Part shown: positions 281 to 1,424 of the stretch, in pieces
How positions within the stretch are numbered: the stretch's first letter is position 1
Layout of the letters: each line of letters opens with the position of its first letter
Assembly: GCA_902494465.1 (NCBI GenBank)
Contig: CABUTH010000124.1
Span: forward strand, 1 to 5,736
From: an uncultured Collinsella sp.
Lineage (GTDB): Bacteria > Actinomycetota > Coriobacteriia > Coriobacteriales > Coriobacteriaceae
Direction of reading: 5' to 3'
Length of the DNA stretch: 5,736 nt
Position numbers and translations under genes: made by a program
Notes under the pieces: generated by a model
What the model was told of the DNA's origin: nothing
What the model saw: the letters and a program-made list of their open reading frames with translations, nothing else
The model's database searches: none

Positions 281-320
281 AAAACCACTACAAAGATGCC
301 TGTCCCCTTTGCGGTGGTTT
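281..320 (-). repeat. REP-like hairpin element, copy A, at the mscS stop codon (possible terminator)
   Basis: An imperfect palindrome: arm 282-295 pairs with 307-320 (13 of 14 positions including one G-T wobble), leaving a loop that contains CCTGTCCC. It begins AAAACC (281-286), carries CCTGTCCC at 299-306 and ends GGTTT (316-320). Copies at 1330 and 1385 share this layout. Read on the minus strand, the stem is followed by TTTTCATT, so it could act as a weak intrinsic terminator for the channel gene. The TAA stop codon of that gene (319-321) lies in its outer edge. Confidence 0.7.
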
Positions 321-1086
321 AGGCGATGATGGGGGCGATGGCGCGGATGCAGGCGTCGGCTGCCGTGAAAGTAGTGCTGTCGTCGCTGACGATAAAGATG
401 ATCTTTCCTTTGATGCCAAAGTCGCCGATTTCGCTAAAGAGTACGTAGGGCTCCTTGTCAAAGCCCGAGATGGGCGAGACGGCCGTTTTGGTTGCGCTCG
501 TGAGCTCGTCTGCCAGCACGTCAAGGGAAGCCCACTTAGACGTGTCCTTTACGGCAACGGGCACGGCCACGCGCCCAAAGGGCATCAAATGCACGAGCGT
601 GTTCTTGGAGATGTTGGAATTGGGCACAATGATGGTCTGTCCACAGGCATCCTCAATCGTTGTATGGCGCCAAGTGATGTCTTGGACCACGCCCGACACG
701 CCGCCGACCTCGATATTGTCGCCGGGTTTGATGATGCCCATAAAGGTCACCTGCATGCCGCCGATAAGGTTTGATAACGTGTCCTGAAAGCCGAGCGAGA
801 TGGCGATGCCGCCGACGCCAAGAGCGGCGACAAGCGCGTTTGCGTTAATGCCAAAACAGTTGTCGAGGATAAAGCTGCCGCCAATCATCCAGATGACGGC
901 GCGCGCGATGTTGATGAAGATACTCGATGCCGGAAGCGGGTTATCGTCTCGGTTAAGCAGATGGTTCAGGGTCTTGGATACGACCTTGGCGGCGACGGCG
1001 GTGCCTATCGCCAAGATGACGGCCCAGATGATGTTGTGGACCCACCGTTGCTCAAAGAAATGAAGAATCGGCTCAAACAATTCCAT
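319..1086 (-). CDS. MscS-family small-conductance mechanosensitive ion channel
   Basis: A 255-residue integral membrane protein that should open on membrane tension and release solutes during hypo-osmotic shock. Hydrophobic segments lie near residues 18-36, 56-76 and 83-112. The last is the pore helix: ALVAALGVGGIAISLGFQD then TLSNLIGG is rich in small residues, as in Escherichia coli MscS TM3. The beta domain follows with IKPGDNIEVGGVSGVVQDI and the family hallmark TTIEDACGQTIIVPNSNI (about 142-159), then a C-terminal alpha/beta domain. The length is close to E. coli MscS (286 residues), with a short C-terminal tail. I chose the ATG at 1084-1086 because AGGAGG (1097-1102) lies 10 nt upstream. 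The frame stays open a further 60 codons upstream, see 1087-1266. The gene ends in hairpin copy A. Confidence 0.9.
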   Translation of the reverse strand: MELFEPILHFFEQRWVHNIIWAVILAIGTAVAAKVVSKTLNHLLNRDDNPLPASSIFINIARAVIWMIGGSFILDNCFGINANALVAALGVGGIAISLGFQDTLSNLIGGMQVTFMGIIKPGDNIEVGGVSGVVQDITWRHTTIEDACGQTIIVPNSNISKNTLVHLMPFGRVAVPVAVKDTSKWASLDVLADELTSATKTAVSPISGFDKEPYVLFSEIGDFGIKGKIIFIVSDDSTTFTAADACIRAIAPIIA

Positions 1087-1266
1087 GTAGGGAAAACCTC
1101 CTAATGATCGTTCAACCATGATACCCACCAAGAAGCCCGTCCGATCAAATTCGGACGGGCCGATAACTTGAGATGGGGTGGCCGCGGTGGCGTAAGCTGG
1201 GGCGCCGGCGAGCACGCCGGCAAGGAGTGCGGCGGTCAAGGCGAGACGGGGAAGAGAGCTTCTCGT
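1087..1266 (-). other. In-frame signal-peptide-like segment upstream of the channel gene, lacking a canonical start
   Basis: The frame of the channel gene continues upstream without a stop to a TAA at about 1312-1314. Its early part reads RSSLPRLALTAALLAGVLAG followed by APAYATAATPSQ: basic start, hydrophobic core and an AYA cleavage-like site, with GC-rich third positions typical of real coding sequence. There is no ATG at its head. The only well-placed codon is ACG (1264-1266), 7 nt after AAGGA. A TTG at 1237-1239 has no clear ribosome site and would cut off the basic end. It may be a start lost by an ATG-to-ACG change, a rare non-AUG start, or the remnant of an exported-protein gene fused to the channel leader. 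The AGGAGG used for the chosen channel start lies inside this segment. Confidence 0.4.
1135..1160 (-). promoter_or_regulatory. Perfect 10-bp hairpin in the leader of the channel gene (possible attenuator or terminator)
   Basis: GCCCGTCCGA (1135-1144) and TCGGACGGGC (1151-1160) are exact complements around a 6-nt loop. On the minus strand the stem is followed by TTCTTGG, a weak U-rich tail, and ends 48 nt before the channel start codon. It could end or attenuate transcripts entering from upstream, or fold the leader RNA. If the upstream signal-like segment is translated, the hairpin lies inside coding sequence. The stem is seen directly; its role is inferred. Confidence 0.5.
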
Positions 1267-1329
1267 GGCAGTTTCCTTAGTCCTTAACCAGTAGTTCCTG
1301 CTGACGCTGGATTATCGACATAATATGCG

Positions 1330-1369
1330 AAAACCGCCGCAAGGGCGCCTGTCCCTTAGCGGCGGTTTT
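1330..1369 (-). terminator. Strong intrinsic terminator of the ABC operon; REP-like element copy B
   Basis: Arms AAAACCGCCGC (1330-1340) and GCGGCGGTTTT (1359-1369) are exact complements. An inner AAGGG (1341-1345) / CCCTT (1353-1357) stem with one bulged base leaves the 7-nt loop CGCCTGT. On the minus strand the stem is followed by TTTTCGC. It lies 53 bases past the ATPase stop, so it probably ends the importer operon. The stem is flanked by A and T runs on both sides and could also work on the plus strand. It shares the AAAACC / CCTGTCCCTT layout of copies A and C. Confidence 0.8.
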
Positions 1370-1384
1370 GACGTTTGCGCAGAT

Positions 1385-1424
1385 AAAACCTGCCAAAATA
1401 AACCTGTCCCTTTTTGGTAGGTTT
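1385..1424 (-). repeat. REP-like hairpin element, copy C, at the ATPase stop codon
   Basis: AAACCTGCCAAAA (1386-1398) pairs with TTTTGGTAGGTTT (1412-1424) over 13 positions; the single exception is a G-T wobble on the plus strand, which becomes a C-A mismatch on the minus strand. The loop contains CCTGTCCC (1403-1410). It lies 55 bp from copy B, start to start, and the ATPase stop codon (1423-1425) falls at its edge. On the minus strand it is followed by TTTTATCT, so it may be a first, weaker terminator ahead of copy B. Confidence 0.75.

Follow-up and report, generated by a model that had tools for sequence, protein, structure and literature searches.

Canonical REP/RAYT systems, exemplified by E. 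coli TnpAREP, consist of intergenic palindromes of 20 to 40 bp and of a repeat-specific transposase gene that lies between inverted copies of the repeat. TnpAREP requires GTAG and cleaves REP DNA in single-stranded form at CT dinucleotides, and loop or stem features are important in other such transposases (PMC8266576). The repeats associated with TIRYTs share the motif GGGGWSAS, and moderately abundant TIR families are known, some of which are self-complementary (De Nocera et al. 2013, PMC3733652). RAYT subclass 2.1, characterized by the motifs NHxH and Y[IV]xLNP (Table 1 of PMC6006769), probably corresponds to the TIRYTs, and the main text of the 2018 survey records no REP-like sequence near subclass 2.1 genes (Quentin et al. 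2018, PMC6006769). For this subclass, one source thus gives no REP-like repeats (PMC6006769) and the other gives TIR families (PMC3733652); here, clear hairpin families are found together with a transposase. The main texts of both papers contain neither Collinsella nor CTGTCCC or GGACAG, and a literature search, with most subscription journals outside its coverage, found no description of the Collinsella repeats reported below. They represent hairpin families with their own transposase in common gut bacteria, in a class that is poorly described.

The window, a stretch of 5,736 nucleotides from an uncultured Collinsella sp., best matches genomes of the Collinsella aerofaciens group, for example L019 (97.7% over 5,750 aligned bases). 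Its Pfam-matched genes are all on the minus strand and comprise the end of a class II tRNA synthetase gene, ABC substrate-binding, permease, and ATPase genes, and an MscS-type channel gene. The family A hairpin (281..320, minus strand), supported by further copies of the family and by orthologous sites, reaches into the stop codon (319-321) of the MscS-type gene. The family B hairpin (1385..1424, minus strand) likewise reaches into the stop codon (1423-1425) of the ABC-ATPase gene, and a G+C-richer hairpin, element C (1330..1369, minus strand), is located between A and B. The shared frame described in the first-pass annotation was recovered in full: AAAACC starts at 281, 1330, and 1385, the tag word CCTGTCCC always begins 18 positions later on the plus strand (299..306 in A, 1348..1355 in C, and 1403..1410 in B), GGTTT is placed 16 to 17 bp past the start of the tag, and TTTT follows each stem on the minus strand. 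Read on the gene strand (minus), element A has the form AAACC..GGGGACAGG..GGTTTT with GGGACAGG as its tag; most orthologues of element C carry TCTGTCCC at the tag position.

The tag word occurs three times in the window, compared with 0.21 expected, and a count of at least three was reached in 1 of 200 dinucleotide shuffles. Predicted folding energies of minus-strand RNA at sites 1, 2, and 3 were -15.5, -28.6, and -11.2 kcal/mol (z scores of -2.1, -4.8, and -1.0), and those of plus-strand RNA were -13.9, -28.6, and -15.9 kcal/mol (z scores of -1.9, -4.2, and -3.9). The gene-strand fold of site 3 (B) does not exceed shuffled sequence, since its z score is only -1.0 and 29 of 200 shuffles fold equally well. 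A search of the window against Rfam gave 0 matches at the gathering score.

The trio is not a single element with three different stems. Of 17 readable relatives (L009 and L010 were unreadable), 15 have B and then C, and L007 and L013 do not. At this site, L007 holds a single ordinary A hairpin and no B, with ACCACC in place of the GCCGCC of the others; L013 holds the start of an A hairpin, broken by an insertion sequence, and likewise no B. Because these two relatives carry A and not B, element C is read as an A hairpin in which both stem arms have changed, two stem pairs having gone from A-T to G-C, and B is read as a presence/absence site of a separate family. The extent first given for B holds for the hairpin, and the B unit is longer than that by a conserved left foot outside it (1376..1384, plus strand). 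This foot reads GCGCAGATA in the window and mostly TTTNCCCAGAT before AAAACC in the family (37 rows, orthologous copies counted).

Some of the compared loci differ in other respects. The L013 insertion sequence, which we take to be IS3-like from the ends of its transposase, apparently lies within the A loop twice, at 6791-8706 (site 1) and from about 4530 (site 2); CTG stands at both junctions of the site 1 insertion, and part of the element is masked in L013. Apparent end remnants of the same type of insertion sequence are seen in L012 (site 1) and L232 (L144 site). At about 5794-5850 in L016 (site 3), part of the stem and tag of the B element is duplicated in tandem within the element (CCAAAAAGGGACA repeated). 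Around 1180-1300, the window retains only a remnant resembling a signal peptide, where L003 (3852-5875) has a 5'-nucleotidase-like gene, in two overlapping frames, between the ATPase and MscS genes; other relatives carry this gene as well.

Copies were counted in 43 genomes of the genus Collinsella and 395 genomes of the order Coriobacteriales. The pattern AAACC-N11-13-CCTGTCCC-N7-11-GGTTT gave 17, 18, 17, 11, 0, and 0 copies in six genomes and 0 for the backwards control. When the spacing of this strict frame was widened slightly, 22 of the 43 genus genomes contained 9 to 27 copies each (433 in total; control, 0), and the copies among those listed were mainly A (AAACCACCACAAAGGTGCCTGTCCCCTTTGTGGTGGTTT) or B (AAACCTGCCAAAATAAACCTGTCCCTTTTTGGCAGGTTT). 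Allowing up to two mismatches, the A core gave 16 to 36 matches per genome in these 22 and 1 to 12 in 8 others. Order-wide it was present in 30 of 395 genomes (control, 0), and the matches listed from beyond the genus set were the symmetrical GGGGACTGTCCCC variant. Each of the three hairpins is a member of a dispersed repeat family that occurs in the Collinsella aerofaciens group. The many copies per genome and their excess over the controls agree with what the first-pass annotation expected of a repeat family, and the excess of the tag word over shuffles places the trio beyond chance. Another dispersed repeat lies in the flank of a B element (L052:1365-1419, query 166-220); it has matches in many of 42 genomes, often as close inverted pairs.

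A search for a transposase, as had been suggested, gave matches to PF01797 (Y1) in 37 of the 43 genus genomes, some of them IS200-type, and one such transposase is flanked by B hairpins. This RAYT lies between inverted B hairpins in three genomes, at L093 (G001), L104 (G009, where its frame is truncated), and L106 (G035), and so shows the repeat-flanked-transposase arrangement (REPtron/TIRtron). Counted from the first position of the Y1 match, the hairpins are at about -380 and +590 to +875. The B-RAYT (252 amino acids, counted from an internal Met) contains NHIH (SHIH in G001), YIHLNP, and a long C-terminal part, as in subclass 2.1. When a helix-turn-helix domain was sought with Pfam at E values up to 1, Y1_Tnp alone was reported. 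The protein scored 70.4 bits with the NCBIfam REP-associated tyrosine transposase model, below the cutoff of 80, and matched the TnpAREP structure 4er8 in the PDB with an E value of 1.2e-5. Its homologues occur in 212 of the 395 order genomes. As the 22 family-carrying genomes contain only two full-length B-RAYTs and one truncated B-RAYT, most B and A copies are orphans.

For A, no stem was found beside any of 92 RAYT loci. The closest case comes from L164, whose genome does not belong to the genus set and whose RAYT has an A-like inner core (CCCAAAGGTGCCTGTCCCCTTTGGG) next to it. Inspection by eye of one A cluster (G002:C7, two of its three copies, read in L038) found no RAYT-like open reading frame of at least 70 amino acids. 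Family A may be a relic or may be moved in trans, and a RAYT that is now lost or unsampled may have spread it.

The 92 RAYT loci comprise the Y1 loci of the genus set and the best 30 homologue loci of the order-wide search, with eight IS200-type loci excluded; removal of 11 exact duplicates left 81. From 500 bases upstream to 1,000 bases downstream of the Y1 match, [CT]CTGTCCC was found upstream 40 times on the minus strand and 2 times on the plus strand, and downstream 41 times on the plus strand and 5 times on the minus strand. It is thus in the inverted arrangement 81 times and in the opposite one 7 times, and the reversed word, used as a control, was found 2 times in all. An inverted tag pair is present at 24 of the 81 loci, any tag at 35, and none at 46. 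Many of these loci are orthologous (10 of the 81 represent a single locus), and the count was therefore repeated with one locus per 70%-identity cluster. Across the 38 clusters, the corresponding numbers were 16/1 upstream and 16/2 downstream (32 inverted, 3 opposite), and 12 clusters contained a locus with an inverted tag pair.

Other RAYT loci have CCGTCCC, ACGTCCC, or CTGACCC at the tag position. The type of tag tracks the RAYT tree, requiring 17 changes compared with a mean of 35.5 after shuffling (0 of 200 shuffles as low); this tree holds 70 of the 81 loci, after short, broken, or motif-less frames were dropped, and near-copies add to the clustering. A CTCAGA stem has 65 matches in G023 and 71 in G020 and flanks the RAYTs of both, that of G020 containing a stop. 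A GGGAAAA stem has 87, 128, and 123 matches in G038, G031, and G042, some symmetrical copies being counted on both strands (97 distinct places among 100 rows listed for G031), and flanks the RAYTs of all three; it has 4 matches in G005 and 0 in G159 and G160. Stems vary between RAYT lineages, and the tag is constant. In addition, a RAYT type of about 282 amino acids (L086-L092 and L094-L097) has flanking repeats with GTCTGTCCC 5' of an ATGAGTG hairpin, and the same tag may therefore sit outside the stem.

Because the tag is inverted around RAYT genes and is constant across lineage-specific stems, the hairpins are a RAYT-type repeat system; it lacks the canonical GTAG tag and comes nearest to the GGGGWSAS TIR class, which has been little studied. 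Membership of the trio in a RAYT-type system of a poorly described class is well supported. Like the TIRYT/TIR systems, the Collinsella system has a Y1 transposase with NHxH and YxxLNP, a C-terminal extension, and flanking inverted repeats with GGGGWSAS, a motif that A matches fully (GGGGACAG) and B and C match at 7 of 8 positions. Unlike them, the Collinsella repeats form hairpins that carry the word in their loop, number dozens per genome, lie near gene ends, and belong to the Coriobacteriales. The REP/BIME-like character proposed earlier stands as far as dispersal, high copy number, gene-end position, and the Y1 link are concerned; like REPs, the hairpins are short palindromes with many intergenic copies, and 1 of 28 distinct elements lies inside a predicted gene. 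It fails for canonical REP/BIME, since GTAG is lacking. Neither GTAG nor GTGG stands at the 5' hairpin foot, the tag CCTGTCCC is instead in the loop or 3' shoulder, and in one sister family it is 5' of the stem. Canonical GTAG REPs were rejected as a candidate after the flank profiles (37 B and 31 A rows) yielded no GTAG consensus. Nor do the hairpins at sites 2 and 3 form a BIME, in which adjacent REPs alternate in orientation, as both have the same orientation; G031 and G038 do contain close pairs of alternating orientation, with another stem. The B-RAYT shares the HUH/Y1 fold family with IS200/IS605 elements but differs in its tyrosine motif, which is YIHLNP and not Y...Q, and in having one match per genome.

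We estimate a probability of about 0.8 that the hairpins spread as non-autonomous single-strand elements through Y1 (HUH) transposases and were retained at gene ends as predicted terminators. The transposase would fold out the hairpin in single-stranded DNA, read the tag and the cognate stem, and cut and rejoin DNA near the tag. The compared loci yielded no fresh insertion whose empty site is clean and dated; only site polymorphism was observed there.

An explanation compatible with this transposition reading is that the compensated stems arose mainly by mutation, through template switching between the arms of the palindrome, and are uninformative on RNA function. Switching from arm to arm would keep the arms complementary and would sometimes flip or symmetrize the loop. 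One orthologous gene end has the loop in both orientations (L011 versus L016), a symmetrized loop such as GGGGACACTGTCCCC in most relatives, and four complementary combinations at the top of the stem, all of which favor this mechanism. In an alignment of 12 of 19 orthologous loci for this gene end (9 distinct rows; 7 loci with an insertion or another arrangement or length were left out), 0 of 500 shuffles attained the observed covariation score, and three pairs changed on both sides, which 32 of 500 shuffles reached. At a second site, L130, the score was reached by 198 of 500 shuffles; here the tag is lost and the stem is retained in 6 of 12 loci, which also fits selection. The covarying stems of the first-pass annotation are therefore supported at one orthologous site, and their value as a sign of selected structure is reduced: the pattern fits hairpin selection, arm-to-arm copying, or both, as copying within palindromes gives an equal result and covariation need not mean selection on RNA. 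We consider a mainly mutational origin quite possible, at somewhat less than even odds.

Placement was scored for 54 of 55 fetched element loci, representing 28 distinct elements after removal of orthologous copies. Genes were predicted with a codon-score caller (own script) and not taken from annotation. This caller replaced longest-ORF calling, which put 20 of 55 elements inside ORFs, because the latter was judged unreliable in G+C-rich DNA; the switch favors the gene-end reading. The distinct elements comprised 18 codirectional, 6 convergent, and 2 divergent cases, 1 at an edge, and the 1 inside a gene. Among the 25 that have a gene 3' end as a neighbor, 16 lie within 20 nt of it, compared with 31% for positions drawn at random within those gaps, in line with the gene-end placement that had been predicted. 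What stands out is the distance to the 3' end alone, because other gaps of the same loci have a similar gene arrangement (13 codirectional, 6 convergent, 2 divergent). The tag strand is opposite to the abutting gene in 13 of the 16 and the same in 3, and A and B of the window conform to the majority.

In the window copies the stem is followed by four T, with about four T on either strand, and RNA of either strand would present a stem and then about four U, at which transcription could end. A consensus terminator scan did not pick up any of the window elements, and the poor gene-strand fold of site 3 also speaks against termination. As judged from stem and T run, the hairpins are predicted terminators, and their placement near gene 3' ends and the exchange of A and B at one gene end make such a role likely. 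It is unlikely, in our view, that they are nothing but plain intrinsic terminators that share or converge on a favored hairpin, with the transposases irrelevant. Their nearness to gene 3' ends, with A and B overlapping stop codons in the window, is as expected of such terminators, and so is the stem that outlasts the tag at L130. The same applies to one gene end at which 19 of 21 loci have A or an A-like hairpin (degenerate in L232) and 2 of 21 have B; A and B replace each other there. Intrinsic terminators resemble the hairpins in stem, U run, and position but lack the fixed loop word and the dispersed-repeat character. A loop word is unneeded for termination yet recurs, it is inverted around RAYT genes (40/2 and 41/5; 16/1 and 16/2 by cluster), B flanks a RAYT, and other Collinsella carry the tag on different stems with 65 to 128 matches. 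Very improbable is recognition of the loop word by an RNA- or DNA-binding regulator of the host, with the RAYT link due to hitchhiking: a conserved loop word on variable stems and the 13-to-3 orientation bias would suit it, but the GTCTGTCCC-ATGAGTG repeats linked to RAYTs have the tag beyond the stem as well, its type tracks RAYT phylogeny, and the window has no Rfam match.

Spread by Y1 transposases with retention at gene ends remains our preferred explanation, under which, by analogy with TnpAREP, a Collinsella RAYT would read CCTGTCCC plus its own stem. More tentatively, and with doubt that all parts hold together, we propose a modular code of single-strand transposition for the Coriobacteriales, in which the near-constant loop tag would be read by the catalytic core of subclass 2.1 RAYTs and the exchangeable stems by the RAYT of each lineage. 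The hairpins would double as interchangeable terminators at gene ends, with turnover at stop codons, and would stay palindromic through arm-to-arm template switching. The shared tag and the lineage-specific stems constitute a testable recognition code, and the gene end at which A and B are exchanged lends itself to a natural test of whether mobile hairpins are recruited as terminators.

Two further features were seen among the RAYT loci. In L081-L083, L098-L101, and L113-L115, a RAYT with an open frame of 278 to 348 amino acids reads SVHADP or SVHANP, with Ser at the position of the catalytic Tyr, and the sister copies in L075, L077, L078, and L107 retain Tyr; the Ser form is possibly a domesticated gene. 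At the L119 locus, near-identical tRNA-like stretches and hairpins are present on either side of the RAYT.
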